DNA of 64,000 nucleotides from Pseudomonas entomophila (lineage in GTDB: Bacteria > Pseudomonadota > Gammaproteobacteria > Pseudomonadales > Pseudomonadaceae): contig NZ_CP063832.1 in NCBI RefSeq assembly GCF_023277925.1, positions 5,377,501 through 5,441,500 of the forward strand, written 5' to 3'. Within the stretch, counting starts at the first letter, position 1. Each line of letters begins with the position of its first letter. The notes under the pieces were generated by a model. That model searched no databases, was not told the origin of the DNA, and saw only the letters and a list, made by a program, of their open reading frames with translations. Shown here in pieces: positions 29,480-44,074 of this stretch. The translations under genes were made by a program, and so were the position numbers.

Positions 29480-29660
29480 AAATTTGGCGACCGGGTGTGA
29501 GAAGCCCGTTGTATTCACCATTTTGGCTTTCCATTTTCATGGCAGTCGTGCGCGTGCAGGCTTCGGTCTGGCCGTGGCTTTTCATGGTGTCTACACGGTC
29601 TTCTCACCATGCGTACGGCTGCCACCCTTGTCTGTGAGAAGGATGGAGGTGGTTGTCTCC
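29480..29660 (+). ncRNA. Structured leader upstream of the DUF3077 pair; C4-antisense-like RNA candidate
   Basis: The 420-bp gap after the autotransporter holds no convincing ORF but strong pairing potential. A CGGG-N9-CCCG hairpin (29492-29508) presents GTGAGAAG (29497-29504) in its loop, and its exact complement CTTCTCAC lies at 29600-29607. TGGCAGTCGTGCGC (29540-29553) pairs, with two G-U pairs, with GCGTACGGCTGCCA (29611-29624). GTGAGAAG recurs near 29633. Loop-to-downstream complementarity just before a small ORF is the logic of phage C4 antisense RNAs. The assignment rests on structure only. Confidence 0.45.
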
Positions 29661-30639: not shown

Positions 30640-30860
30640 GAGGGTTAGTCCTGCCCGTCGAACGACAAGATCCTAAGCCATGGTCTGCTCCGCGTATGCC
30701 GGACCGTTCCGATGCCCCGTTCGGACGTTGCCTAGCGGCAAGTCGCTCCATGCCTACACGTGGGTGTGTGACATAAACATTGTCAGGCTCCAGGCTTTTC
30801 AAGGTGTTCGGCGTTAGCGTTGCAGCGTCTATGAGATCGAGCGCCGCCCGCGCGGCGTAT

Positions 30861-31103
30861 CGCGGATGAATCCGCTCCTACAGGTAGCGCGCGCAACCGT
30901 AGGAGCCAGCTTTGCTGGCGAACACCGGCAAGGCCGGTGCCAGACACTGCGGCGCCTGCTTCGCGGATGAATCCGCTCCTACAGGTAGCGCGCGCAACCG
31001 TAGGAGCCAGCTTTGCTGGCGAACACCGGCAAGGCCGGTGCCAGACACTGCGGCGCCTGCTTCGCGGATGAATCCGCTCCTACAGGTACCGCGTGCAACC
31101 GTA
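30861..31103. repeat. 101-bp tandem array of REP sequence, about 2.4 copies
   Basis: CGCGGATGAATCCGCTCCTACAGG begins at 30861, 30962 and 31063, an exact period of 101 bp. Each unit carries two REP types (CGGATGAATCCGCTCCTACAG and GTAGGAGCCAGCTTTGCTGG). The third copy is partial. The array separates the small-protein region from the AT-rich leader of the biosynthetic cluster. Confidence 0.92.
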
Positions 31104-31741
31104 GCTGCCAGCCGGCACGAGAGTGGGCCTTTCGCCCAACTTCTAGCAAGTCAACCCCCTACTAACGGCGAACTTTTCTCCACATAGCCAAATGGATGAA
31201 GTGCAAGGGCAAGTTTCCGGCCCTTTGGATTCATTCGTTCAGCAGAACTGTCATTGCCCTCAGGCTTCAAATGCATACCTTACGCGAGGCCATTCTTCGA
31301 AAGCGCTCTAGCACGGCGCTTTTGCGGGAATCAAAATGTTTAAATCCAGTTACATGTCTGAAACAAACTGAAATATAGAAAACAGTTTTAACGTGTGTTT
31401 ATTTGTAAATTCACATTTGTCTTATTTTGATACAAATGCCGGATCGACAAAAAAATCCCCCCGCCATTTACTTGCCCCCGACTTCGGTGTGCACCAAGTG
31501 ACTAGTGAGAAAGTTGCACGGATACCCCGCACTCCCGAGTGAGTCAGTAGTTGAACACCCGACCTTGACGAATAAAGTCGGTGCCTTGCGCTTAACACTT
31601 TCAGACGTATCCGCCTTGTTGCGGATCGCCAGGCATGCTGGCCAAAAACAGAGGGCGTATGTGCCGTCTTAGATGGTGGGCGTGGTGTAAGTAGCGAGTC
31701 TGCTAGTTGTTAACGTCAAACTTTGATAAGGAATATCAGGC
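31104..31741. promoter_or_regulatory. AT-rich gene-free leader of the N-N biosynthetic cluster
   Basis: This stretch of more than 600 bp has no convincing gene on either strand. At 31320-31440 it is unusually AT-rich for this genome (ACAGTTTTAACGTGTGTTT and TATTTTGATACAAATG), the kind of DNA bound by silencers such as MvaT. The promoter of the following twelve-gene cluster must lie here. An AAGGAA ribosome site precedes the first ATG at 31742. Confidence 0.55.
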
Positions 31742-32653
31742 ATGACGCAACTCCCCATCCAAGGTGTCCTTCCGGTCGCCATCCTGCCGTACAACAACGA
31801 CCTCTCCCTGGATACCTCGGCCCTGCGCCTGCAGGTCGAACACATCCTGCACACCGGCTGCGACGGCGTGGTCATCGGGCAGATTTCCGAGGTCTCGCGG
31901 CTGACCACCAGCGAACGCTTCCGCGTAGCCGAACTGATCGCCGAACAGACCGGCGACAAGGGCCTGGCCATCATGAGCACCGGTGGCGAGAGCATCGCCC
32001 AGGCGATCGAATATTCGCGCCAGGCCGAGCAGGTCGGCTGTGACGCGCTGCTGGTGATGCACCCGTCGATGTGGGCGCTCGATGACGAGCAGATGTACAC
32101 CTACTTCGCCAATGTCGTCGAAAGCGTGCAGATACCGGTGCTGGTGCACCACGCCAAGTCGCTGGCCAAGCGGCCGCTGTCGATCGACGTGCAGGCCCGC
32201 CTGCTCAAGGCGTTCGGCCCGCAGAAGGTGCAGTTCAAGCCCGAATCCGCGCCCACCGCGCCCAAGGTTTCGCTGTTGCGCGACGCCACCGGCGGCCAGG
32301 CGCGGATCTTCGAGGGCGACGGCGGCATGATGCTGGTCGATACCTACCAGCGCGGCCTGGCGGGGGTGATCCCGGCCACCGAGATCGCCGAGATCACCGT
32401 GGCGCTGTGGCGCGCATTGCAGGCCGGCGACGAGCGAACCGCCCGAGCCATCGCCTACCCGCTGTCCTACCTGATGTGCCACATGATGGCGAGCATCGAC
32501 TGTTACTTGCAGTTGTCGAAACACCTGCTCAAACGCCGCCGGTTGATGAGCAATACATTGATCCGCCCACCCGTGGATTTCACCATGGATGTGGAAACCC
32601 TTAAAGAAGTTGAAAAAGTCTACGACCAACTTTTCGAATTCGTGACCCAGTAA
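31742..32653 (+). CDS. Dihydrodipicolinate-synthase (DapA/NanA) family aldolase/lyase
   Basis: The 303-residue TIM-barrel protein has the family start (GVLPVAILPYNNDLSLD) and a Schiff-base Lys at 166 in VQFKPES. The stretch that in DapA carries the catalytic Tyr (YYN.P) reads VLVHHAKS here, with His136-His137. The enzyme is therefore probably a class I aldolase or lyase with a changed proton relay rather than a true DapA. It is the first gene of the cluster and 14 bp before the mutarotase-like gene. It could form or cleave a C-C bond next to a keto acid; the substrate is unknown. Confidence 0.82.
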   Translation: MTQLPIQGVLPVAILPYNNDLSLDTSALRLQVEHILHTGCDGVVIGQISEVSRLTTSERFRVAELIAEQTGDKGLAIMSTGGESIAQAIEYSRQAEQVGCDALLVMHPSMWALDDEQMYTYFANVVESVQIPVLVHHAKSLAKRPLSIDVQARLLKAFGPQKVQFKPESAPTAPKVSLLRDATGGQARIFEGDGGMMLVDTYQRGLAGVIPATEIAEITVALWRALQAGDERTARAIAYPLSYLMCHMMASIDCYLQLSKHLLKRRRLMSNTLIRPPVDFTMDVETLKEVEKVYDQLFEFVTQ

Positions 32654-32667
32654 TAAGGAAGTTACTC

Positions 32668-33048
32668 ATGCAGCGTATTGGTTTCTCCATTGAATTGACC
32701 AGCCTCGAAGCCGCCGAACTGTATAAAGCCATGCACCGTGATGTCCCCGTGCAAATTGCCGGTGAACAAGGCGTACTGCGTGAAATCGGTTTGCAGCGTA
32801 TGTCGATCTACTTGTTGCCGCCGCGCACCTTGTTCATGCAAGTCGAAGCCCACGATCAGTTCGACCCGCTGCGCGACTTTACCCACGCCCTGTCGGTGCA
32901 CCCGGTGATCCAGGCTTGGGACGACCGCATGCACGGTGACGACAACCCGCTGCTCAAACGCATCGAAGGCAACCGCACCGACCTCAACTGGTGGCGCCTG
33001 GAGCAGGTGTACGACTGGACCCTGGAAACGGCGGGCCAACAAAAATGA
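32668..33048 (+). CDS. L-rhamnose mutarotase (RhaM)-like protein
   Basis: The 126-residue protein fits the dimeric alpha-beta-barrel RhaM family: …YKAMHRDVP…LREIGLQRMSIYLLPPRTLFMQVEA and, later, VIQAWDDRM. RhaM interconverts sugar anomers. Outside rhamnose operons such small folds are recruited as cyclases or isomerases, so its role here is open. AAGGAAG precedes the ATG. Its stop overlaps the start of the HMGL-like gene (ATGA). Confidence 0.72.
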   Translation: MQRIGFSIELTSLEAAELYKAMHRDVPVQIAGEQGVLREIGLQRMSIYLLPPRTLFMQVEAHDQFDPLRDFTHALSVHPVIQAWDDRMHGDDNPLLKRIEGNRTDLNWWRLEQVYDWTLETAGQQK

Positions 33049-34067
33049 CCGCGCACAACCAGTCATTCGTGTTGATGGATTGCACCTTCCGTGATGGCGG
33101 GTTCCAGACCGACTGGCGGTTTTCCGATGCCATGGTCGGGCGCTATTTCGGTATGTGCCAGGCCACCGGCGTGGACATTGTCGAGATGGGCTACCTGAAC
33201 CTGGACCCCGCCGCGCGGGTCAGCCACCCCGGGTCGTTCAAGGCACTGCCCGAGTCGCTCAGCGATGTGCAGCGCCAGCAGGTCGACCTGGGGCCGATGC
33301 GCGCGGCGGTGATGATCGATGCCTGGCGCATCCTCGATCAGCCGGTGCAGGCTGCCGCCGAGGTGATTCTGGCGGCGATCCGGCGCTCGCCGTTCCCCAT
33401 CGCCATCCTGCGCATCGCGGCCATGAGCAGCCAGCTCGCGGGCAGCCTGGCGCTGGCCAAGGCGTTGGCGGGGCAGGACCTGGCGGTAATGATCAACCTG
33501 ATGCAGGCCGCCGAACTGACGCCGGAGCAACTGGCCCTGGACCTGCCTGCGCTGGCCGTCGAACCCGTCACGGCGTTGTATTTCGCCGACAGCTTCGGGC
33601 GCATGCTGCCGGAGCAGGTCCATCGCCTGTTCAGCCGGGCGCGGGAGCTGACCCCGTTGCCGCTGGGCTTCCATGCCCACGACAACTATGGCCTGGCGGT
33701 GGCCAATACCCAGGCGGCGCTGGATGCTGGCGCCCGCCATGCCGATGGCACGTTCGCCGGGATCGGGCGAGGGGCCGGCAACGCGCCGACCGAAACCCTC
33801 GGCCTGCTGAAGTCGGGGACACGGGAAATGGCCGAGTGCGAGGCGTTCCTGGCGGCGCACATCGAGCCGCTCAGGCTCACGGCGAACTGGGGCTACTCGC
33901 CCACCTATCGCAGCCAGGCCAGGCACAACGTGCACCCGACCTACGCCCAGCGCCTGTTCGAAGGCACGCCGCTGACGGGCCTTGAGCGTATCGACATCCT
34001 CGGCAAGATCGCCGGGCATGCCGGGGCGCACAAGTTCGACGCGAGCATTCTCAGCCACTACCGGTGA
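33045..34067 (+). CDS. HMG-CoA-lyase-like / 4-hydroxy-2-oxovalerate-aldolase-type metalloenzyme
   Basis: The 340-residue DRE-TIM metallolyase has the motif DCTFRDGG (residues 12-19, with Arg16 and Asp17) and the metal-binding HAHDN at 210-214 (His210, His212). The lid motif GIGRGAGNAPTE follows. The family does Claisen or aldol C-C bond chemistry with a divalent metal. The ATG at 33045 overlaps the previous stop codon, whereas an upstream in-frame start would run through that gene. With the DapA-like enzyme this gives the cluster two different aldolase-type enzymes. Confidence 0.85.
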   Translation: MTAHNQSFVLMDCTFRDGGFQTDWRFSDAMVGRYFGMCQATGVDIVEMGYLNLDPAARVSHPGSFKALPESLSDVQRQQVDLGPMRAAVMIDAWRILDQPVQAAAEVILAAIRRSPFPIAILRIAAMSSQLAGSLALAKALAGQDLAVMINLMQAAELTPEQLALDLPALAVEPVTALYFADSFGRMLPEQVHRLFSRARELTPLPLGFHAHDNYGLAVANTQAALDAGARHADGTFAGIGRGAGNAPTETLGLLKSGTREMAECEAFLAAHIEPLRLTANWGYSPTYRSQARHNVHPTYAQRLFEGTPLTGLERIDILGKIAGHAGAHKFDASILSHYR

Positions 34068-34073
34068 ACGAAC

Positions 34074-34796
34074 ATGGTCAAACTCGGTGAACTGCTGGCG
34101 GACTGCAAGTTGGTGTTCTTCGACTGCGACGGCGTGCTGCTCGACTCCAACGGGGTGAAGCTGGCCGCGGTCGATCACGCCCTGGCCGCCTACCCGGCGG
34201 TGCTGCGCGAGCGCTGCAAGGACAGCTTCCGGCTCAACTTCGGTCGCCCGCGGCGCTGGCACTTCGAAGCCTTCCAGCGCTTGATCGGGGTGGCCCAGGA
34301 GGAAGATTTCGTGGCGGCGAGCATCGAGCGCTACGAGCAGTACCTGCAAGCGCACTATCGGCATTCGCCGGCAGTGGCTGGCGCGCCGCACCTGCTTGCT
34401 CGGCTGGCGGCCCGTGGGGTCATTTGCACGGTGGTCAGCGGCGGCGTGGAGGCGGAGATCAATGCCGCGCTGGCCGAGTGCGGGATGGATCGGCTGCTGG
34501 CACGGGTGGTGGGTTCGCCGGTGACCAAGATCGCGGCGATCAACGCGCTGCTGGAGCAGTACGACTGCAGCGCCGCGCAAGCCGTGTTCCTCGGTGATGC
34601 CAGCGCCGACGCCGAGGCCGCCATCGCTTGCAAGGTGCCGTTCATCTTCGTCAGTGGGCATGCGCTGATCGCCCGCTCGACCCTCAGCGCCAGCTGGCCT
34701 GAGGGCCACTGGGGCGGTGAGGTGCCCAACCTGCTGGCGGACAACGCTGTATCGCGCTTTTGCGTGAGCAACCAGACGATCAAGGAGGACTCATGA
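34074..34796 (+). CDS. HAD-superfamily phosphatase
   Basis: The 240-residue HAD hydrolase has motif I FFDCDGVLLDS (Asp17, Asp19), motif II VVSGG and motif IV FLGDASADAEAA. It resembles beta-phosphoglucomutase/phosphatase-type proteins. It starts 6 bp after the HMGL-like gene and overlaps the next SDR gene by 4 bp, so it belongs to the cluster. A phosphorylated sugar- or polyol-derived intermediate is a reasonable guess. Confidence 0.83.
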   Translation: MVKLGELLADCKLVFFDCDGVLLDSNGVKLAAVDHALAAYPAVLRERCKDSFRLNFGRPRRWHFEAFQRLIGVAQEEDFVAASIERYEQYLQAHYRHSPAVAGAPHLLARLAARGVICTVVSGGVEAEINAALAECGMDRLLARVVGSPVTKIAAINALLEQYDCSAAQAVFLGDASADAEAAIACKVPFIFVSGHALIARSTLSASWPEGHWGGEVPNLLADNAVSRFCVSNQTIKEDS

Positions 34797-35494
34797 ACAC
34801 AACCACGCAGCGGCCGCTGCGCATCGCCATCACCGGTGTGAGCCGTGGCCTGGGGCTGGCCTTGAGCCAGGCGCTGGCCGCGCGCGGCCACCAGGTGTTC
34901 GGCTGCCAGCTGTCGGCCGAGGCCGCGCCGGCGGCCCAGGCCAACCCGGCACTGTTCAGTGCTTCGGTGGCGGTGCCCGAGGACATGCGGCGCTTCGCCG
35001 AGGCAGCGTGCCGCGAGGGGGCGATGGATATCGTGGTGTGCAATGCCGGGGTGATCAATGCGCGCAAGCCGGCCTGGGAAATCAGCCAGGAAGAATGGGC
35101 GCAGGTGATGGAGGTGAATGTGCTGGGCGTGGTCAACACGCTGCACGCCTTCCTGCCGGCGATGCTCGACCGCGGCCAGGGCCTGTTCGTCGCCATCAGC
35201 TCCGGCTGGGGGCGTTCGGCGTCCTGGGGGCTCGGCCCGTACTGCGCGAGTAAATTCGCGGTGGAGGGGTTGGTCGGCTCGCTCAGCGCCGACCTGCCGG
35301 AGGGTTTGCACGCGGTGGCGCTGGACCCTGGCAACGGGGTGAACACCAAAATGCTCGCCCAGTGCCTGCCGGATGACCATGCGCAGTACATCGCCCCAGG
35401 GCTGTGGGCCGAGCATGCCGCGGACTACATCGTCGACCAGCTTCATGGGCAAAAGCTCTCGGGCAGCCGCACGGTGCCGCACCCCGGCTGTTGA
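34793..35494 (+). CDS. Short-chain dehydrogenase/reductase (intact active site)
   Basis: The 233-residue SDR has the cofactor motif TGVSRGLG, NAG in VVCNAGV, catalytic Ser in ISSGWG and the YCASK motif. It probably oxidises or reduces a hydroxyl/keto group with NAD(P)H. The ATG at 34793 has GGAGG 8 bp upstream and overlaps the preceding stop. Confidence 0.88.
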   Translation: MNTTTQRPLRIAITGVSRGLGLALSQALAARGHQVFGCQLSAEAAPAAQANPALFSASVAVPEDMRRFAEAACREGAMDIVVCNAGVINARKPAWEISQEEWAQVMEVNVLGVVNTLHAFLPAMLDRGQGLFVAISSGWGRSASWGLGPYCASKFAVEGLVGSLSADLPEGLHAVALDPGNGVNTKMLAQCLPDDHAQYIAPGLWAEHAADYIVDQLHGQKLSGSRTVPHPGC

Positions 35495-35520
35495 CGGATT
35501 TCAAGACAGGGAGGCAGACA

Positions 35521-36246
35521 ATGCTGAAGGACAAACGTGTAGTGGTCACCGGGGGTGGCCGTGATTTTGGCCAGGCGGTTTCGGTCTGGCTGGCCCGCGA
35601 GGGCGCCCATGTGGACCTGTGCGCACGCCAGCTGGACAGCGCCCGGGCTACCTGCGAGATCATCCAGGGCGAAGGCGGCTCGGCCCGCGCCTATGCCTGC
35701 GACATTGCCGACGCCCGCTCGGTGCGTGCGTTCGCTGAGCAGTTGCAGGCCGACGAGCGGCCGGTGGATATCCTGGTGCTCAGTGCCGCGCAGTGGCTCG
35801 AAGGGCCGTTGGGCGAGGGTGACAGCGATGAAGAGATCGTCAGCACCATCAATTCCGGGCTGACCGGCTCGATCACCCTGACCCGGGCACTGCTGCCCAG
35901 CCTGCGCCGCTCTGGCGCGGCGGACATCATGGCGATGGTCTCGGTGTGCGGCGTGCCGCAGTTCACCAACTCCGTCGCCCATCCGGCGTTCTTCGCGGCC
36001 AAGCACGGCATGAGCGGTTTCTGCCAGAACATGACCCACCACTTGGCGCCGGAAGGTATCCGCGTCACCGGTTTCTACCCGCCCGACTTCGAGGTGACCA
36101 GCCTCGATGAAACCGTCGACCCGGCAGGCCGCCTGCTCAACGGGCGCTCCATCTGGGAAACCATGCGCTTCGTGCTGGCCCAGCCGCGCAGCTGCCATAT
36201 CGATGCAGTGCATTTCCGTGGCCCGACCCGGCAGGACTTGACGTGA
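35521..36246 (+). CDS. SDR-family protein lacking the catalytic Tyr
   Basis: The 241-residue protein has an N-terminal Rossmann motif (VVTGGGRDFGQA) and SDR topology, but the YxxxK motif reads FFAAK (Phe157, Lys161). A Ser (141) is present, three residues further upstream than usual. It may be inactive, act as a partner of the neighbouring SDR, or catalyse a different reaction such as an epimerisation or dehydration. GGAGG precedes the ATG. Its stop overlaps the next gene (TGATG). Confidence 0.8.
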   Translation: MLKDKRVVVTGGGRDFGQAVSVWLAREGAHVDLCARQLDSARATCEIIQGEGGSARAYACDIADARSVRAFAEQLQADERPVDILVLSAAQWLEGPLGEGDSDEEIVSTINSGLTGSITLTRALLPSLRRSGAADIMAMVSVCGVPQFTNSVAHPAFFAAKHGMSGFCQNMTHHLAPEGIRVTGFYPPDFEVTSLDETVDPAGRLLNGRSIWETMRFVLAQPRSCHIDAVHFRGPTRQDLT

Positions 36247-37241
36247 TGCGCGCGGCCAACGCCCAGGTGCCGGCGGCGTATCAGTTGGCGGCCGATGACC
36301 AGCAATTGCGCCAGGTCATGGCCGCCAACATCGCCGCTGGCTACTTCAGCGCCGATTGCGATCCGGCGGTGTTCTACGACAAATGCGCGCAGCATCGCGC
36401 TGTCAGCCGGATCGACCCAGGCCTGGCGTTCACCGCGCAGGCGCTGACGTCGTTGGACGCACTGCCGGGCGATGCCGGGCGGACCTGGGTGGTGCGCCCG
36501 TCGATTTCGCCGGCGTCACGAGGCTCGGCGTTGCTGCTGGGGCTTGGTGGCATCGATGCGTCGGCGCTGGCGGTGGCGATGCAGGGTGCAGCGGGGCCGT
36601 TCCTGCTGCATGAGCACGAGCCGGGCGAGCCGCTGTTCATCAATGGTGTGTTCGCCCAGGGGCAGTTCATCGTCAGCGATGCCTGGCACTGCTACACCCT
36701 GGATCTGGAAGGCCGCAGGATTCTAACCGCGGTCACCAGCCTGCCCACGTCCCGGCTACCCGACGGGCTGGTGCCACGGCTGGCTGCCGTGGCCAGCGGG
36801 CTGGGCATGGTGCATGGCCCGCTGCATGCCGAAGTGGTGGTCACCCAGCATGGGCCACGCCTGGTCAAGCTGTCGCCGCGCCTGGCCAGCACGCCGTTGC
36901 CCGAGCTGTGCCGGCTGGGGGGCTGGCCTTCCCAGGAAGACAGCTGGCGCCAGTTGCCCCGCATCGGCGCCGGCGCCGAACAACCCGTGGCGGACTACTC
37001 CTTCGTGGTGACCCGCCCGGGGCGTGTCAAAGCGTTTCGCTTCGACCGGGAGGTGCGTGGCCTGGCCAGTTTCAGCCACTACTTCGTCGCGCCGCCGCTG
37101 GGCGAGCACATGGCGATGACCACCGATGGCACCACCTATGGCTGCACCGTGTTCCTGCGTCATCGCAGCCTGGCGGTGCTGGAGGAGGATATCGCCCGGC
37201 TGCAGGCGCTCAACCTGGCCGACGCGTTCGAGTTCGACTAG
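36246..37241 (+). CDS. ATP-grasp-like protein, shortened and with altered metal ligands
   Basis: The 331-residue protein has the C-terminal ATP-grasp pattern: VVRPSISPASRGS for the nucleotide loop, GPLHAEVVVTQHGPRLVKLSPRLAS for the metal site. The usual ExN metal pair reads Lys208-x-Ser210, although Glu196 and Arg212 are kept. Compared with amino-acid ligases of about 400 residues it lacks part of the N-terminal domain. It could be a non-catalytic or divergent amide-bond ligase. It begins inside the previous stop codon (TGATG). Confidence 0.65.
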   Translation: MRAANAQVPAAYQLAADDQQLRQVMAANIAAGYFSADCDPAVFYDKCAQHRAVSRIDPGLAFTAQALTSLDALPGDAGRTWVVRPSISPASRGSALLLGLGGIDASALAVAMQGAAGPFLLHEHEPGEPLFINGVFAQGQFIVSDAWHCYTLDLEGRRILTAVTSLPTSRLPDGLVPRLAAVASGLGMVHGPLHAEVVVTQHGPRLVKLSPRLASTPLPELCRLGGWPSQEDSWRQLPRIGAGAEQPVADYSFVVTRPGRVKAFRFDREVRGLASFSHYFVAPPLGEHMAMTTDGTTYGCTVFLRHRSLAVLEEDIARLQALNLADAFEFD

Positions 37242-37347
37242 CCCGCAGGCACTTTGCAACACCCAAACCGGACCGCCCGGGGCCGTCATCGTGGATGACG
37301 ACCTCGTGGCCCCGCTCAGCCTGAAATTCAGTAGAAAGGGAGTTCAC

Positions 37348-38667
37348 ATGAGTTTTGCAACAGATGTGGCCAGAAGCCCTTGCGAGCGCAAGGTACATGA
37401 CGTGGTGGGCATTGGGTTCGGCCCGTCGAACATTTCGCTGGCCATCGCCCTGCAGGAGTTGGCCCCGGAGCTGTCGGTGGCCTTCGTCGACAGCGCCCCA
37501 GGCTTTGCCTGGCATAAAGGCATGTTGTTCAAGAACGCCACCATGCAGGTGTCGTTCCTCAAGGACCTGGTCAGCTTTCGCAACCCGCGCAGCCACTTCA
37601 CCTTCGTCAACTACCTGCACAGCAAGGGCCGTATCGCGGCGTTCTGCAACAAGAAGGACTTCTTTCCCGGGCGCGTGGAGTTCCATGACTACCTGAGCTG
37701 GTGCGCGGCCGAGTTCAGCGAGCAGGTGTTCTATGGCCACCGGGTGCTACGCATCGCCGAAGGCGGTGTGGCGGACGACGGTGCGCCGCTGTTCCGGGTC
37801 GAGATGCAGGTCGGCGATACCACCACCTCGCTGCTGACCCGTTCGGTGGTGCATTCGCTGGGGCTGGAGCCGCAGATGCCGGACGATGTCCAGCCCGGTG
37901 AGCGCGTCACCCATGTGCATCACCTGCTGGCGCGGCTGCAGGAAGCCAACCTGCCGGCGGACGGCCATTGCGTGGTGGTCGGCGGCGGGCAAAGCGCCGC
38001 CGAGGCGGTGGAGTACCTGCTCGAGACCTACCCGGCGTTGCGGGTGACGGCGATTCACGCCCGCTACGGCTACACCCCCGCCGACGACAGCCCGTTCGTC
38101 AACGAGATCTTCGATGCCGAGGCCGTGGATGGCTTCCATGCGGCGCCGGCCCATGTGCGCAAGCACGTGCTGCGTACCCATGCCTCCACCAACTATGCCG
38201 CGGTCGACCTGGCGCTGATCGAGAAGCTCTATCGGCAATGGTACGACGACGAGGTCAGCGGCCAGCAGCGCCTGACCCTGGAGCGCCTGAGCCGGTTCCA
38301 GAAGGTGCAGGTGCAGGGCAATGGGCTGCAGGTGACGTTCGATCGACAGCTGAGCGGCGAAGCGCGCCAGGTCCACTGTGACTACCTGGTGTGCGCCACG
38401 GGCTTCCGCCCACGCAACATCGCCGACCTGTTGTGCGCGCCGCTGGCGTCGCGGCTGGTCAAGGAGGAGGGCGGTGCGCAGTTGTCGCGCCATTACCGCC
38501 TGGCCTTCAAAGGCGATGCCGCGCCTTTGCTGTATTCCACCGGTGTCGCCGAGGGCTCCCACGGGCTGAGCGCGACGCTGATCTCCAACATGGCCATCCG
38601 TGCCGGCGAAATCGTCGGTGACCTGAAGACCAGCTTGAGGCACAGGCAGTATGAAAAAGCCGTTTGA
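37348..38667 (+). CDS. Flavin-dependent amino-acid N-hydroxylase (lysine/ornithine N-monooxygenase family)
   Basis: The 439-residue protein has FAD motif GIGFGPSNISLAIAL, family motifs MQVSFLKDLVSFRNP, TPADDSPFVNEIF and STNYAAVD, NADPH motif VVGGGQSAAEA and ATGFRP. These are the hallmarks of IucD/PvdA/SidA enzymes that hydroxylate the side-chain amine of lysine or ornithine. No siderophore synthetase is nearby. Its neighbours are an amino-acid-oxidase-type enzyme and a cupin-MetRS fusion, so it probably supplies the N-hydroxy amine for N-N bond formation. GAAAGGGAG precedes the ATG; it overlaps the next gene by 17 bp. Confidence 0.92.
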   Translation: MSFATDVARSPCERKVHDVVGIGFGPSNISLAIALQELAPELSVAFVDSAPGFAWHKGMLFKNATMQVSFLKDLVSFRNPRSHFTFVNYLHSKGRIAAFCNKKDFFPGRVEFHDYLSWCAAEFSEQVFYGHRVLRIAEGGVADDGAPLFRVEMQVGDTTTSLLTRSVVHSLGLEPQMPDDVQPGERVTHVHHLLARLQEANLPADGHCVVVGGGQSAAEAVEYLLETYPALRVTAIHARYGYTPADDSPFVNEIFDAEAVDGFHAAPAHVRKHVLRTHASTNYAAVDLALIEKLYRQWYDDEVSGQQRLTLERLSRFQKVQVQGNGLQVTFDRQLSGEARQVHCDYLVCATGFRPRNIADLLCAPLASRLVKEEGGAQLSRHYRLAFKGDAAPLLYSTGVAEGSHGLSATLISNMAIRAGEIVGDLKTSLRHRQYEKAV

Positions 38668-39721
38668 TGTGATCATCGTTGGCGCAGGGATCGTCGGCGC
38701 GACCTGCTTCCATGTGCTGAGCCAGGCGGGCAAGCGCTGCCTGCTGCTCGACGAGAAACAGCTGGCCTGCGGCATCACCGGCGCGTCGGGGTGCATCGTG
38801 CGGGTCACCCACGCCTCGCGCGAAGCCACGGCGGCGGCGGCCGAGGGCTACCGCTTCTACCAGCGACTGAGCGCAGCCGCCCAGGGGCGGGTGCCGTTCG
38901 CCCGCACGGGGTATCTGCATTTTGCCGAAGTGGCGGACCTGGACCGCATGCATGGTTGGCTGGCAGAGGAGGGCATCGACGCCGAACTGCTCGATGGCCA
39001 GGCGCTGGCCGCGCGCTTCCCCGCCTTGCCGATCAACGCCGAACTGGCGCTGCTCGAACCTGGCTCGGGCTACATGGAGGCCAGGCCGACCCTGGAGTAC
39101 CTGGTAAGGGCCGGAACAGCGCTGGGCGGTGTCTACCAGGACGCGGTCACGGTGCACGGCCTGCGGGTCGATGGCAGCGGCAACCGGGTGGCCGGCGTGG
39201 AGACTTCCGCTGGCGCCTTCGAGGCCGGGCATGTGGTGTTGGCCATGGGCAATGGCGCCCCTGACTTCCTCGCGCGCCACTTTGGCGATGCGTTCGGCCT
39301 GTGGAACCAGCACATCCAGGTCACCCGTTTCAAAGGGCTCGATGCGCTGACCACGGCCCCGTGCTTCATCGATGACGTCAACGACCTTAATGGGCGCTGG
39401 TGCCCGCTGACCGGCGGCTTCTACGTGGGCACCCCCACCGGCCTGCGGGTGCCGGCCAGCCAGGCCTATGCCGCGGCCAGCCCGGCCCACGCGCAGTTGA
39501 CCCGCGAACGTGGCGAGCGGCGTTTCCCCTGGCTGCGCACGGCCACTGCCGAAGGGGCGCTGTGCCACAGCGACTGCTATAGCGCTCAACCCATCGCCCT
39601 GCTCGGCGAGCAGCCCGGGTTGCCCGGCGGTGTGCAGGTGGCATCGGGCTTCAGTGGCGGTGGCTTCAAGATGGCGCCTTACGCCGCCATGCGTGTTGCC
39701 CGTGTGATCACTCAAGGATAG
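38651..39721 (+). CDS. FAD-dependent oxidoreductase of the D-amino-acid/glycine-oxidase (DAO) family
   Basis: The 356-residue protein has the N-terminal FAD motif VIIVGAGIVGATCFHVL and the C-terminal FAD-contact GFSGGGFKMAPYAA. Family members oxidise secondary or primary amines such as glycine, sarcosine or proline. In the s56-p1 pathway the corresponding enzyme (Spb39) cleaves the hydrazino-glycine intermediate to release the hydrazine. The 17-bp overlap with the N-hydroxylase gene and 12-bp gap to the cupin-MetRS gene support a shared pathway. Confidence 0.88.
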   Translation: MKKPFDVIIVGAGIVGATCFHVLSQAGKRCLLLDEKQLACGITGASGCIVRVTHASREATAAAAEGYRFYQRLSAAAQGRVPFARTGYLHFAEVADLDRMHGWLAEEGIDAELLDGQALAARFPALPINAELALLEPGSGYMEARPTLEYLVRAGTALGGVYQDAVTVHGLRVDGSGNRVAGVETSAGAFEAGHVVLAMGNGAPDFLARHFGDAFGLWNQHIQVTRFKGLDALTTAPCFIDDVNDLNGRWCPLTGGFYVGTPTGLRVPASQAYAAASPAHAQLTRERGERRFPWLRTATAEGALCHSDCYSAQPIALLGEQPGLPGGVQVASGFSGGGFKMAPYAAMRVARVITQG

Positions 39722-39732
39722 AGACCAGAACA

Positions 39733-41736
39733 ATGAAAAAAATCAGCATGTTCGCGCCGGCCAAGCGCTTCTACAACGTCGACTCGCGTGCCGTTGATCT
39801 TGAAGGCACCAATATCAACCTGATGGGCTGCACGCTGGCACCGGGGCAGGAGAGCCAGCCGCACAACCACTTCGAGGACGAACTGTTCGTCTTCACTGCG
39901 GGCCACGGCCTGGTGCGCACCGCCCAGGAAGTGCTCGAAGTGCATGCCGGCGACGCGGTTCATTGCCAGCGTTTCGAGCCCCATACCATTCGCAACCTGA
40001 GCGCCAGCGAGCCGTTGCAGTTCCACTCGCTGTACTGGGATGCCGGGCAGGTGAACTCGGTCGAAGCGCAGCCGGTGCTCGACACGCTGATCTTCGCCAC
40101 CCCGCCCACCCCCAATGGCGACCTGCACCTGGGGCATCTGTCGGGCCCCTATATCGCCGGTGACGTGCTCAAGCGTGTGCTGGCGGGCGCGGGCGCGCAG
40201 GTGTTCTATGGCAGCGGCCGCGACGACAACCAGACCTACGTGGTGACCTGTGCGGCGCGGGAAGGGTTCAGCCCCACCGAGTGCGCCGACCACTACGCCG
40301 AGGCGATCCGCGAGACCTGGCAGGGCTACGGGATCGACATGGACTTTTTCATCACCCCGGACAACCAGGGTGAGTATGCCGACTTTGTCCACCACTACCT
40401 GCAGCGCCTGTACGACCAGGGGCTGATCTACGCCAAGGACACCCCGGTGTTTGTCGACAACCAGGGCAACGCGCTGCACGAAGCGTTCATCCACGGTGGT
40501 TGCCCGCATTGTGGCGAGAGCAGCGATGGCAATGCCTGCGAGGCCTGTGGCCAGCCGAACCAGTGCGTCGACCTGACCCAGCCGCGGGTCAAGCAGGATG
40601 GCCGGCAGCCGCAACTGAAGATCGAGACACGTTTGTTCTTCCGCCTGAGCGCGTTGGCCGATGAGCTGGCCAGCTATGTGCAGACAGCGAACATGCCGGC
40701 GCACGTCTACCAGCTGTGCCACGCCATGCTCAGCCAAGGGCTGCCGGATATCTGCATCAGCCACCGCAGCGACTGGGGCATCCGCCATCGCCTGCCGGGG
40801 ATGCAGGACCAGGTGGTGTATGTCTGGTTCGAGATGGCCTTCGGTTACCTGTGGGCCGCCAGCGAACTGCCGGGCGCGGACGGCGACCGCATGGCCAGGG
40901 CCGCGCAGCGCTACGCGGGGGCCATGGACATCGTCCATTGCTACGGCTTCGACAACGCTTACTACCACACCCTGCTGTTCCCGGCGGTGTACCTGGCACT
41001 GGGGCTGACGCCACCGCGCCACCATGTGGTCAACGAACTGCTCGACCTCAACGGCAGCAAGTTTTCCACCAGCCGCCGACACCTGATCTGGGGCAAGGAC
41101 TTCCTCACCGAAGCGGGTGCGGACTATGCGCGCATGGCGTTGATGCTGACCCGGCCCGAGGGGGTGAGGACCAACTTCACCGTGGACCAGGTCTGCGAGC
41201 GAATCAACGACCTGTTCGCCGACAAGCTCACCCACTGGGTCCAACGCCTGCAGCAGCATGTCGCCCGCCAGGCTGGCCAGGTGCCTGAACCCGGTGCCTG
41301 GCTGAGCGACCAGAAGATCTATCACGGCGAACTGATGCAATGGATGGCGGGCTACCAGCAGGCGGCTGCGACCCAGACCTTCTCGCCACGGCGCATGGCC
41401 GAGCAGGTAGCCCAGGTGATCGACCGGGCCTGGCGCTTCGGCCTGGCCCAGGAACACCTGCTGGCGCCCGGGCAACCCTTGTCCAACCATGCCCGCACCG
41501 CCGTGGCGCTGCTCGCGCTTACCGCACGCTGGCTGGCCCATGCCACCGCCCCGTTGATGCCGGGGGTGAGCCGTCAACTGAACGAGGTACTTAATATCGA
41601 GGCACAGGCCAACGATGCGGCCCAGGCCTGCACGTTCTTCACCGCCAACCACGTCCTGGCCCAGGGCGCCACGCTGGCGCTGCCCAAGCTGTCGCCAGAG
41701 GCGCTGGCGCAACTGATGCCAGGGCGGGCCGGATGA
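39733..41736 (+). CDS. Cupin-methionyl-tRNA-synthetase fusion, predicted hydrazine synthetase
   Basis: The 667-residue protein begins with a cupin (metal ligands His44 and His46 in QPHNHFEDE) and continues as a class I aaRS of the MetRS type: HLGH at 132-135, KFSTS at 443-447, and a four-Cys zinc knuckle (Cys257, 260, 269, 272). The C-terminal helical domain is kept. Spb40 and related enzymes with this architecture activate an amino acid such as glycine as an aminoacyl ester of an N-hydroxy amine, and the cupin rearranges it to an N-N bond. The neighbouring N-hydroxylase and DAO oxidase complete the known trio. Housekeeping MetRS has no cupin, so protein synthesis is unlikely. Confidence 0.88.
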   Translation: MKKISMFAPAKRFYNVDSRAVDLEGTNINLMGCTLAPGQESQPHNHFEDELFVFTAGHGLVRTAQEVLEVHAGDAVHCQRFEPHTIRNLSASEPLQFHSLYWDAGQVNSVEAQPVLDTLIFATPPTPNGDLHLGHLSGPYIAGDVLKRVLAGAGAQVFYGSGRDDNQTYVVTCAAREGFSPTECADHYAEAIRETWQGYGIDMDFFITPDNQGEYADFVHHYLQRLYDQGLIYAKDTPVFVDNQGNALHEAFIHGGCPHCGESSDGNACEACGQPNQCVDLTQPRVKQDGRQPQLKIETRLFFRLSALADELASYVQTANMPAHVYQLCHAMLSQGLPDICISHRSDWGIRHRLPGMQDQVVYVWFEMAFGYLWAASELPGADGDRMARAAQRYAGAMDIVHCYGFDNAYYHTLLFPAVYLALGLTPPRHHVVNELLDLNGSKFSTSRRHLIWGKDFLTEAGADYARMALMLTRPEGVRTNFTVDQVCERINDLFADKLTHWVQRLQQHVARQAGQVPEPGAWLSDQKIYHGELMQWMAGYQQAAATQTFSPRRMAEQVAQVIDRAWRFGLAQEHLLAPGQPLSNHARTAVALLALTARWLAHATAPLMPGVSRQLNEVLNIEAQANDAAQACTFFTANHVLAQGATLALPKLSPEALAQLMPGRAG

Positions 41737-42557
41737 GCCGGGTCTCGTCGTTGCGCCCAGTGGGTATCGTCGGGCCGCTGAGCGGTGCGCGTGCGGCCTA
41801 TGGGCAGTGGCTGCGTCGAGCCGCCGAAGGCACGACCTTGCCGCTGCTGTGGGCGGACGACGGTGCCGACCCGGCCATGGCGGAGGCGGCCGCGCGCTAC
41901 CTGCTCGATGCCGGCGTTCAGGGGGTGGTCGGCCACTTCAACAGTGAATGTGCCCGGGTGGCCGGGCGCCTCTACCAGGCGGCCGGCGTGCCGCTGCTGT
42001 TGCCCGCCGCCACGGCACCCGACCTGTGCCGCGCCGTGGGCGCCTGGCGCCTGTGTGCCAGCGAAACGCGGCAGGTGGCGGTGATGCTCGACTACCTCGC
42101 CCGGCATGCCGGGCAGGTCGAGCAGCCCTGGGCACAGCCGGGGGCCTATGGCGAGCGGCTGGCCGGGGCGCTTGGCGAAGGGTTGGGCCAGAGGGCCGCG
42201 TCAAGCGCCGGGCCGTTGATCCAAGCCTTGATGGGCTCGCACGTGGCCGTGGCGCGGGAGATCCATCGCCGCGCCCAGCCCGGTGCGGTCTACCTGGTAC
42301 CCGACGATTGCCTGATCGACGAGTTCGACAGCCTGCTGGCGGGCTCCGGCGTGGTGACGCTGTGCCCGCACGCCACGCCGGATTTCGGCGAGTGCGTGGG
42401 CCTGGCGCTGCGCCTGGTCGAGGCGGCGCGGGCGGGCGGCCACGACCTGGCGGCCTACCTGGACGCCCACCCCGACTTCGACCAGCGCCAGTACCGGCAT
42501 GCCGACTACCGCATGGTGCGGCGTGAATACCCCATTGATCTGACCCAGCCTCTGTAG
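41733..42557 (+). CDS. LivJ-like (Peripla_BP_6) ligand-binding protein without signal peptide
   Basis: The 274-residue protein opens with VGIVGPLSGARAAYGQWLRR and has QGVVGHFNSECARVAG…GVPLLLPAATAPDL, a pattern typical of branched-chain amino-acid binding proteins. It lacks a signal peptide and is about 90 residues shorter than LivJ. It is therefore probably cytoplasmic and not part of an ABC transporter, none of which is nearby. It overlaps the cupin-MetRS stop codon (ATGA). A role in sequestering or sensing an amino-acid-like intermediate is conceivable. Its TAG stop lies inside a REP element. Confidence 0.7.
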   Translation: MSRVSSLRPVGIVGPLSGARAAYGQWLRRAAEGTTLPLLWADDGADPAMAEAAARYLLDAGVQGVVGHFNSECARVAGRLYQAAGVPLLLPAATAPDLCRAVGAWRLCASETRQVAVMLDYLARHAGQVEQPWAQPGAYGERLAGALGEGLGQRAASSAGPLIQALMGSHVAVAREIHRRAQPGAVYLVPDDCLIDEFDSLLAGSGVVTLCPHATPDFGECVGLALRLVEAARAGGHDLAAYLDAHPDFDQRQYRHADYRMVRREYPIDLTQPL

Positions 42558-42637
42558 GAGCGGCTTCAGCCGCGATCACCCGCAAGGCGGGTGCCACACA
42601 CCGCGGTGCCTGCATCGCGGCTGAAGCCGCTCCTACA
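42553..42637. repeat. 85-bp inverted REP pair, copy 2
   Basis: It has the same architecture as the pair at 14913: 24-bp arms (TGTAGGAGCGGCTTCAGCCG…) in inverted orientation around CACCCGCAAGGCGGGTG. The first TAG of the REP is the stop codon of the upstream gene. Confidence 0.9.
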
Positions 42638-42661
42638 GAGCCCAAGCAGGACACATTGAAC

Positions 42662-44074
42662 ATGCAACAGCAGCAACCGATCACCATGGATCAGCCACGG
42701 CTACTGCCCGCCATTGGCGAGGGCAACCTTGCCGCCGGCGATATCGACCTGATGCTGGAAGCGCTGCGTCAGGCGCTGAGTCGACCACGGGGCGAGCTGT
42801 CGGCCCCGGACGAAGCGTCGGCCATCAGCCGCGCCGTCGAGCAGCGCGTCGGCCACCCCATCAGCACGGCCGGGCTGGGGCTACCCGCCGCGCTCGATGT
42901 GTTCGGTAGCCTGCTGACACAGCAGGGCGTGCCCACCGACCATCCCGGCTATCTCGCCTATATAGGTTCCGCGCCGACCCCGGCCGCCGCGCTGATGGAT
43001 GGGCTGCTGTCGACCACCGGCATGATCGGCTCCGGCTGGCTGGGAGGCGCGGGGCTGATCTGGGCCGAGAACCAGGCCTTGCGCTGGCTGGCCGACCTGG
43101 CGCAGTTGCCGGGCGAAGCGGGCGGCTGTTTCGTCAGTGGCGGAACAGCCGGCAACTTCTCCGCGCTGGCGGCGGCCCGGCAGCGTTACCGCGAGCGCAC
43201 GGGGCGGCGCGGCGGGCTGGTGCTGGCGGGCTTGGCGGCCCATGCCTCGATCGACGTCAGTGCCGGGCTGCTGGACCTTGAAAGGGTCGGCGTGGCCTGT
43301 GATGAACAGGGGCGAATGAGCGCGGCGGGGTTGCAGCAGACCTTGGGCGAATTGGCTGCCGATGGCCGATTGGAGCAGGTCGTGGCAATCGTCGCGGTGG
43401 CCGGCTCGACCAACGCTGGCCAGATCGACGACTTGCCGGGCGTAGGTGCCATCGCGCGTCGGCTGGGCATCTGGTTCCACATCGATGCTGCCTACGGTGG
43501 CGCGTTTCTCTGCGTGCCGCAGGTGCGCCCGCAGTTCCAGGGCATCGAACTGGCCGACTCGCTGATCATCGACCCGCACAAAGGCCTGTTCGTGCCCTAT
43601 GACTGTTGTGCGCTGCTGTATGCGCAGCCGCAACAGGCAATGGCGGCCTTCACCCAGGATGCGTCCTACCTGGACCAGATCAACGAGTCGCAGCAGTTCA
43701 ACCCCATGCACTATGCGTTTCACCTTTCCCGCCGCGCACGGGGCCTGCCGTTGTGGTTCTCGCTGGTGGTGCATGGCAGCGACGCCTACCGGCACACGTT
43801 GGAGCGTATCCTGGCGCTGACCGAGGCCCTGCGCCAGCGCATCGCCAGGCACCCACGGCTGGAGCTGATCGAGGCATCGGGGTTGAGCGTGATCCTGTTC
43901 AAGCGCCGCGGCTGGCAAGCGGCCGACTACGAGGCCTGGGCACAGGACTGCCTACGCGCAGGGATTGCCCTGGTGGTGTCGACGCGTTGGCAGGGGGAAA
44001 CGGTGATGCGGCTGTGCATCATGAACACCGGCCTCGACGAGGCGCGCTGCGAGCGCCTGCTGGCGGGGTTGTAG
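42662..44074 (+). CDS. PLP-dependent group II amino-acid decarboxylase
   Basis: The 470-residue protein has the fold-type I decarboxylase pattern of the DOPA/tryptophan/glutamate/diaminobutyrate group: GGTAGNFSALAAAR, HIDAAYGGAFL and the PLP-lysine DPHKGLF (Lys307). It is in the same orientation as the cluster but is separated from it by a REP pair, so it may be a separate transcription unit. It could decarboxylate a pathway amino acid. I chose the ATG at 42662 because AGGA lies 10 bp upstream; a TTG two codons earlier is also possible. Confidence 0.85.
   Translation: MQQQQPITMDQPRLLPAIGEGNLAAGDIDLMLEALRQALSRPRGELSAPDEASAISRAVEQRVGHPISTAGLGLPAALDVFGSLLTQQGVPTDHPGYLAYIGSAPTPAAALMDGLLSTTGMIGSGWLGGAGLIWAENQALRWLADLAQLPGEAGGCFVSGGTAGNFSALAAARQRYRERTGRRGGLVLAGLAAHASIDVSAGLLDLERVGVACDEQGRMSAAGLQQTLGELAADGRLEQVVAIVAVAGSTNAGQIDDLPGVGAIARRLGIWFHIDAAYGGAFLCVPQVRPQFQGIELADSLIIDPHKGLFVPYDCCALLYAQPQQAMAAFTQDASYLDQINESQQFNPMHYAFHLSRRARGLPLWFSLVVHGSDAYRHTLERILALTEALRQRIARHPRLELIEASGLSVILFKRRGWQAADYEAWAQDCLRAGIALVVSTRWQGETVMRLCIMNTGLDEARCERLLAGL

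Follow-up and report, generated by a model that had tools for sequence, protein, structure and literature searches.

Which compound may be formed by a group of genes of Pseudomonas entomophila that combines an amino-acid N-hydroxylase, a DAO-type flavoenzyme and a fusion of a cupin with a methionyl-tRNA synthetase (MetRS)? All three belong to a contiguous set of twelve genes, A to L, found on the forward strand at positions 31742–44074 of the window (the whole stretch of 64,000 nt which has been analysed). This set probably joins two amino acids by an N–N bond and then builds a rare ring. The trio had been pointed out in a sequence-only reading and we have confirmed it; the cupin/MetRS fusion has the residues which mark its family.

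The core genes and the por cluster

The core genes have close relatives in the por cluster of Pseudomonas orientalis. Gene H (37348–38667) codes for the N-hydroxylase, an orthologue of Por9 (81% identity) according to Pfam and sequence comparison. Gene I (38651–39721) codes for the DAO-type flavoenzyme, identified by Pfam and a DAO tree and predicted to be the orthologue of Por10 (69%). Gene J (39733–41736) codes for a cupin/MetRS-like hydrazine synthetase, which Pfam and its motifs indicate to be the orthologue of Por11 (77%). The por numbers other than Por9 and Por11 are our own assignment. In P. orientalis DSM 17489 (L023) all twelve genes A–L are found in the same order and orientation, with proteins 63–92% identical; its genome has only one cupin/MetRS, beside its ordinary MetRS. 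The window belongs to another species and has different chromosomal flanks. Por9 and Por11 of DSM 17489 were characterised in 2022 (Matsuda, via PMC11705231). According to PMC11705231, Por11 couples N5-hydroxyornithine and glycine, and Por9 was characterised with ornithine; a product number, L-28, is printed there, which we interpret as the substrate. The cluster had been taken as undescribed, a claim which has to be withdrawn: its core is of the por type, with two enzymes already characterised and twelve matching genes in order. What is known is the pair of bond-making enzymes in the sister species, but not the final product, which a 2024 review lists as unknown.

J is a di-domain protein, with Pfam matches to Cupin_2 (residues 34–99) and tRNA-synt_1g (124–506), and its catalytic residues are intact in the alignment. 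The zinc-site residues H44, H46, E50 and H84 have the same spacing as D63, H65, E69 and H103 of RHS1 and are invariant in all 34 proteins aligned; H44 stands at the position of D63 and the essential glutamate of the site is present. In PyrN, residues H50, E56 and H90 are spaced like H44, E50 and H84. The KMSKS motif reads KFSTS in J, and an ordinary MetRS, 24% identical to J, is encoded separately in the genome (G000:5665959-5667137). By orthology with Por11, J would form an N–N bond from an N-hydroxylated amino acid, an amino acid and ATP; its pocket motifs are nearly identical to those of the DSM 17489 protein. A single clade uniting J of the Pseudomonas and Streptomyces cassettes was expected. 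It is absent from a tree of 47 rows, hand-picked from the loci collected: in Streptomyces cassettes the MetRS-like domain belongs to another subclade than in Pseudomonas, across the midpoint root. The pocket residues also differ between the two genera, so that the use of glycine is not assured in Streptomyces. The lack of one common clade counts against a single shared choice of amino acid.

The partner genes and the distribution of the cassette

The cassette is preceded by a non-coding leader or promoter region (31345–31741, forward strand), defined by DNA alignment of five loci. In this alignment P. orientalis and P. atagonensis share three conserved blocks with the window, at about 31349–31374, 31418–31485 and 31710–31741. 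Despite this conservation, the genes upstream of the leader differ between the window and these two species.

Seven genes follow before the core. A (31742–32653) is a class I aldolase of DHDPS/NAL type by Pfam and PDB alignment: Lys166 is retained, the GTTGE motif becomes GQ(I/V/M)SE and HH stands at the usual position of Tyr, without variation in the nine proteins aligned. B (32668–33048) is a small RhaM-like protein (Pfam). C (33045–34067) is a DRE-TIM (HMGL-like) metallo-aldolase, with a Pfam assignment, a match to 3dxi and intact RDG and HxH motifs. D (34074–34796) is a HAD phosphatase by Pfam, with DxD and GDxxxD intact, and E (34793–35494) an SDR oxidoreductase, also by Pfam, with YxxxK intact. 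F (35521–36246) has the SDR fold according to Pfam and motif alignment, but Phe157 replaces the catalytic Tyr of YxxxK in 9/9 proteins aligned; its homologues outside Pseudomonas and Xenorhabdus have Phe at the usual place and Tyr one residue past it. The motif blocks of the cassette proteins were compared in a selection of five to nine rows for each gene. G (36246–37241) has the ATP-grasp fold, of the L-amino acid ligase type, as indicated by AF2, fold searches and alignments. Lys208, invariant in 11/11 proteins, is found where the second acidic metal ligand is expected, a position set by alignment to three canonical-looking ATP-grasps and without ligand-bound superposition; Arg84 replaces the KP Lys. 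The alignment of G contains the window protein and 10 of the 13 matches; two close duplicates and one additional ATP-grasp were omitted. As judged from these alignments, three partner enzymes (A, F and G) carry conserved unusual changes in their active sites.

Two more genes lie behind the core. K (41733–42557) has an amino-acid-binding-protein fold, as found by searches and alignments, and is fused to DAO in several actinobacteria. A protein search with K gave 14 matches, none of them adding a new function; the alignment contains the window protein, 11 of the 22 K matches and 8 of the 14 proteins, after removal of close duplicates and of nine long proteins fused to DAO. L (42662–44074) is a PLP decarboxylase by sequence searches, 61–96% identical in five other cassettes of the Pseudomonas/Xenorhabdus type. 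We dropped the idea that L is confined to these genera: distant homologues (30–31%) adjoin the cassettes of Micromonospora and S. lonarensis, in the latter (31%, 137 bits) next to G. Since L scores nearly the same with desferrioxamine decarboxylase (5.8e-39) and DOPA decarboxylase (4.4e-38), its sequence does not tell its substrate.

The gene set is a real unit. Of 398 Pseudomonas genomes, six contain an orthologue of the ligase-like G, and these six are also the ones with an orthologue of J, using set E-value cut-offs and 5 or 3 scored candidates per genome. A search of 343 Streptomyces genomes detected five orthologues of A, all of them in I-A-B-C blocks with J within reach; two of the four matched genomes (G419 and G422) were already known through J, and three of the five orthologues are new. 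Loci L021–L099, the 79 best-scoring out of 395 related stretches, were fetched through J and so say nothing on co-occurrence; the two genome searches above are free of this selection, apart from the two Streptomyces genomes named. The neighbours had been assigned to a hydrazine biosynthetic cluster, which their co-occurrence in Pseudomonas and Streptomyces supports. Independent variation of the neighbours with respect to the trio was looked for in the genomes of both genera, and it is ruled out by the joint presence of G and J and by the I-A-B-C blocks. In Streptomyces, homologues of A–K occur together; in Micromonospora the set is nearly complete and in a Legionellaceae MAG partial. Empty cassette sites are found in two genomes (G024 and G025). 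In the 16 loci of hydrazinoacetate (HAA) type which we compared, A–D, F and G have no match; there is one SDR match (L076).

A possible route to a pyridazinium compound

We give an even chance to the reading that this por-type cassette is horizontally mobile and leads to a pyridazomycin-like pyridazinium compound, decarboxylated in Pseudomonas. By orthology, H would make N5-hydroxyornithine. The MetRS-like half of J would convert glycine into its adenylate and then into an ester on the N-OH group, which the zinc cupin half would rearrange into N-N-bonded N5-(carboxymethylamino)ornithine. I may then oxidise the C–N bond on the glycine side, giving a glyoxylate hydrazone or free 5-hydrazinyl-norvaline, with the ornithine chain retained. 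The next steps, which we propose in place of an open skeleton on hydrazinoacetate, are bolder. A and C, by aldol or retro-aldol reactions, the phosphatase D and E/F could supply and adjust a C3–C4 unit, which would close on the two nitrogens as a pyridazine ring. G, whose amino-acid-ligase fold is rewired, might activate or amidate the carboxylate of this unit; amidation is doubtful, because G is without one acidic ligand of its canonical-looking relatives. K may bind an amino-acid-shaped intermediate. The product would be a pyridazinium amino acid similar to pyridazomycin, and in Pseudomonas and Xenorhabdus L would decarboxylate its ornithine-derived end.

In pyridazomycin, an ornithine chain bears a pyridazinium carboxamide. 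The first report of this compound dates from 1988 and an investigation of its biosynthesis from 1994; according to PMC7347517 it is believed to derive from ornithine, oxaloacetate and glycine, and the producer is S. violaceoniger. These precursors, together with the presence of A–K in S. samsunensis, a member of the S. violaceusniger group, are the basis of the pyridazine reading: an origin from ornithine and glycine fits the N–N substrates of Por9 and Por11. The pyridazine step itself is drawn from precursor logic, and its odds are about even. Streptomyces that are not assigned to the S. violaceusniger group also carry the cassette (L043, L046 and L067), so that the taxonomic coincidence with the producer is weak. 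The Pseudomonas cassette differs by the addition of the decarboxylase L.

The same hydrazine step could lead to another N–N product which keeps the ornithine side: a dihydropyridazinone like that of actinopyridazinone, a pyrazole, or, as a linear compound, a hydrazide or azo amino acid. We consider this rather unlikely, with a described precedent for keeping the hydroxylated side in its favour: Apy9/Apy10 act with N4-hydroxy-DABA and Ala, and the Ala residue is lost as pyruvate (PMC11705231). In that pathway (Apy9–11) the partner amino acid is lost by oxidation and the hydrazine stays on the hydroxylated one, as we propose for I on the basis of the chemistry. Genes A–G are without described counterpart in the literature read, so that sequence does not tell which type of ring is formed. 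However, actinopyridazinone uses DABA and alanine and is reportedly carrier protein mediated, and no counterpart of the carrier protein is found among the Pfam matches of A–L; the believed precursors of pyridazomycin also fit the Por9 and Por11 substrates better.

The DAO bears on a different fate of the hydrazine. The pathways of s56-p1 (Spb38/39/40), triacsin (Tri26–28) and azaserine share the N-hydroxylase (NMO), DAO and cupin/MetRS with the cassette. If I acted as in Spb38–40, it would cleave the ornithine side into hydrazinoacetic acid and glutamate semialdehyde, and A–G would build on hydrazinoacetic acid. This is improbable, even if the order NMO-DAO-cupin/MetRS is that of the HAA-type loci examined and glycine is the partner of the P. 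orientalis synthetase. In a tree of 42 hand-picked rows, I lies outside the HAA-type clade, from which a branch of 2.4 with support 100/100 separates it. The clade holds 15 of the 16 HAA-type rows; the other one (L049) stands alone on a very long branch. HAA-type is our own label, given by locus order; two of these rows are fragments, three come from species known for azaserine or triacsin production (a match at species level), and Spb39 itself is absent. The position of I suggests that the ornithine side is kept. H also differs: it is 27–32% identical to H of the 16 HAA-type loci and 43–44% to that of seven Streptomyces and Micromonospora cassettes. With four H-I-J-K loci the identity is 46% (three of them) and 36% (the fourth). 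I-type DAOs are also present in H-I-J-K loci without A–G, a point against the pyridazine reading. The PDB search with H does not tell a lysine from an ornithine hydroxylase: the best match is MbtG (lysine) at 4.6e-101, followed by KtzI at 2.1e-94 and the ornithine 5-monooxygenase 3s5w at 1.1e-76. The parallel with Spb38/39/40 drawn in the sequence-only reading stands as a functional one; full equivalence is rejected, since this DAO is of a distinct subfamily and the hydroxylated substrate of the por orthologue derives from ornithine, not from lysine as in the known hydrazinoacetate pathways. Streptomyces cassettes have a second DAO, so that I may not be the proposed oxidase.

That J, for its homology to MetRS, is merely a duplicate MetRS with neighbours assembled by chance has hardly any probability: we reject a second MetRS on the KFSTS motif and the separate ordinary enzyme, and the cupin fusion and the co-occurrence of the neighbours also stand against it.

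Meaning of the pyridazinium reading

The 2024 review notes that confirmed enzymes for the direct formation of aromatic N–N heterocycles such as pyridazines are lacking, and another paper describes natural pyridazines as very few, naming three. In the literature searched, mostly without subscription papers, none of the titles or abstracts concerns a gene cluster for pyridazomycin or pyridazocidin or a product of por. We suggest tentatively, at somewhat less than an even chance, that this cassette shows for the first time which genes underlie natural pyridazinium compounds: J would join N5-hydroxyornithine and glycine, and a dedicated set of rewired enzymes (A, F and G) would close the ring. The product would be pyridazomycin in Streptomyces, and its decarboxylated sister in Pseudomonas and Xenorhabdus. 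If the link with pyridazomycin is true, a compact and transferable Pseudomonas cassette would make an old question of biosynthesis testable, and A, F and G, conserved enzymes whose active sites are unusual, would be open to study.

The cassette and its predicted hydrazine synthetase

The twelve genes of the cassette (A to L) lie on the + strand at 31742–44074, with several 4-base overlaps, in a genome which is a single contig of 5.76 Mb, where the window spans 5377501–5441500. They code for a DHDPS-type aldolase (A), a RhaM-like protein (B), an HMGL-like aldolase (C), a HAD phosphatase (D), two SDRs (E and F), an ATP-grasp-like protein (G), an N-hydroxylase (H), a DAO flavoenzyme (I), a cupin/MetRS protein (J), a binding-protein fold (K) and a PLP decarboxylase (L). 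The sequence-only reading had their coordinates and motifs correct, but the N-N system is not, as it claimed, undescribed: the core is of the por type, already characterised in Pseudomonas orientalis DSM 17489. According to a review (PMC11705231), the por cluster was found in that strain by Matsuda et al. 2022; Por9 is the N-hydroxylase and Por11 the hydrazine synthetase, which uses glycine and either N5-hydroxyornithine or N4-hydroxy-DABA, while the product is entered as 'unknown'. The specificity of Por9 is printed there as 'toward L-28', the review's number for N5-hydroxyornithine; we take ornithine to be the intended meaning. Section 15 of the review prints WP_057724699.1 as the accession of Apy10; this number is consecutive with the Por9 accession and probably denotes Por10 from P. 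orientalis.

Our locus L023 comes from the strain of the por study. All twelve window proteins are matched in it, with 63–92% identity and in identical order. The window cassette is a new por-type example, real, well bounded and partly characterised. The P. orientalis genome has an ordinary MetRS and no further cupin/MetRS beyond the cassette one.

Among named proteins, the closest relative of J comes from P. entomophila (98%). H44, H46, E50 and H84 are invariant in 34 aligned sequences, and the same holds for KFSTS, for both His and the Gly of HLGH and for all four cysteines of the zinc knuckle. The spacing of the cupin residues equals that of the RHS1 zinc site, where all four residues are individually required (PMC8664883, in its section 10). 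The amino-acid pocket motifs are nearly identical to those of the P. orientalis protein, and an ordinary MetRS gene is present elsewhere in the window genome. By orthology, J would act as a hydrazine synthetase. Other Pseudomonas have MetRS-like proteins with 28–37% identity to J (L002–L006 and L008, in G029, G026, G022, G020, G018 and G031); a small separate cupin adjoins the gene in four of these six loci, which may be read as further, different hydrazine-type loci.

Occurrence of the cassette in other bacteria

The cassette is one unit. A G orthologue is found in six of 398 Pseudomonas genomes (E <= 3.4e-136; next best 2.8e-15) and a J orthologue (at least 77%) in exactly the same six; the neighbours keep company with the core, as the gene-cluster reading had proposed. 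Five other Pseudomonas genomes (E <= 1e-60) only have a J relative of 33–38%. In 343 Streptomyces genomes we have found five A orthologues in four genomes (E <= 1e-70); all of them adjoin I, B and C and have J close by. Two of these loci (L045 and L059) were already known through J; L127, L128 and L129 are new. In L128 J is partly visible at the end of the stretch, where H and K are not seen. L127 and L128 are two separate cassettes of one genome (G683), with A proteins 93% and 83% identical to the query.

Among the loci gathered through J (the best 79 of 395 related stretches), homologues of A–K are complete in six from Streptomyces (L043, L045, L046, L059, L067 and L097), with a weak K match in L067. 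Micromonospora L063 has ten of these eleven genes, without E, and a Legionellaceae MAG has nine, without F and G. Gene L shows 61–96% identity across the five other Pseudomonas/Xenorhabdus-type cassettes (L021–L025); its distant homologues adjoin the Micromonospora cassette (30%) and that of S. lonarensis (31%). In a tree of 47 J rows the J proteins of the Streptomyces cassettes sit in a separate subclade with actinobacterial H-J-K-DAO loci, so the amino acid which they use may differ from that of Pseudomonas, though A–G and I are common to both. This counts against the pyridazine proposal below.

The Streptomyces cassettes also have a second DAO, next to K or fused with it. In L045 (11840–13840) a K-type binding-protein domain is fused to a DAO flavoenzyme according to Pfam; length and alignment indicate the same fusion in L046, L063, L074, L075, L080, L083, L088 and L096. 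This unusual fusion suggests that K passes an amino-acid-like intermediate to the oxidase. L021, labelled 'Pantoea sp. Cy-639', is 95–99% identical to the window over the cassette and a downstream gene M, and is probably a mislabelled Pseudomonas. L032, a 7.3-kb contig of Serratia sp. Ag1, has a compact variant B-C-D-J-F, with the match to C divided between two ORFs.

Insertion site and leader

The flanks of the cassette vary from host to host; in Xenorhabdus sp. BG5 transposase genes are found on both sides. At the window's own site, the two flanks are separated by 168 bp in genome G024 (14.9 kb in the window) and by 1.6 kb in G025 (14.0 kb in the window), and neither genome has a J orthologue. 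In view of these short gaps without J, and of the differing flanks in other hosts, acquisition as a block is the most likely history of the cassette at this site. It also seems to carry a leader of its own: segments near 31.35–31.37 and 31.42–31.49 kb are kept in P. orientalis and P. atagonensis, as are the final 30 bases or so upstream of A.

The insertion site is bordered by an ORF of 4658 aa (15287–29263) with glycine/asparagine-rich repeats and, to the eye, an autotransporter-like end. A C4 antisense RNA (Rfam RF01695, 60 bits) lies at 29535–29629 beside two small genes; the stretch has near copies elsewhere in the genome, up to 88%. Imperfect REP-like repeats of about 100 bp (gcggatgaatccgctcctacagg...) occupy 30860–31120, within the DNA that separates the autotransporter region from the cassette.

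The DAO flavoenzyme and the possible product

A tree of 42 DAOs places I with those of loci which have H, I, J and K without A–G, of the Legionellaceae cassette and of the Streptomyces and Micromonospora cassettes (100/99). Sixteen DAOs come from loci labelled as hydrazinoacetate-type by their gene order, three of them from species in which azaserine or triacsin producers are known. Fifteen form a separate clade (branch 2.4, 100/100), near which the program flags long branches meeting; the other one (L049) is an isolated long branch. Judged by this tree, which bears on the type of DAO and not on which C-N bond I oxidises, I is not of the hydrazinoacetate type, and this position outside the clade makes hydrazinoacetate a less likely product.

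A pyridazine ring as the structure built by the cassette has, in our estimate, about an even chance. The two aldolases, the phosphatase, the SDRs and the ligase fold would make a C3-C4 unit and close it onto the N-N bond. Structurally, pyridazomycin is an ornithine chain bearing a pyridazinium carboxamide. Its producer is S. violaceoniger, and its origin is believed to be ornithine, oxaloacetate and glycine, as stated in a 2020 review (PMC7347517), which gives its N-hydroxylase as unknown; ornithine and glycine are also the Por9/Por11 pair. In NCBI taxonomy S. violaceoniger resolves to S. violaceusniger, and the host of L045 is within that group; S. antioxidans, S. beigongshangae and S. celluloflavus also carry the cassette and are not assigned to that group. 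Pyridazocidin, described in a passage of PMC3202864 as a cationic Streptomyces phytotoxin, is a further candidate relative of the product. The value of the cassette lies in its open product and in a link to a long-known antibiotic that can be put to the test.
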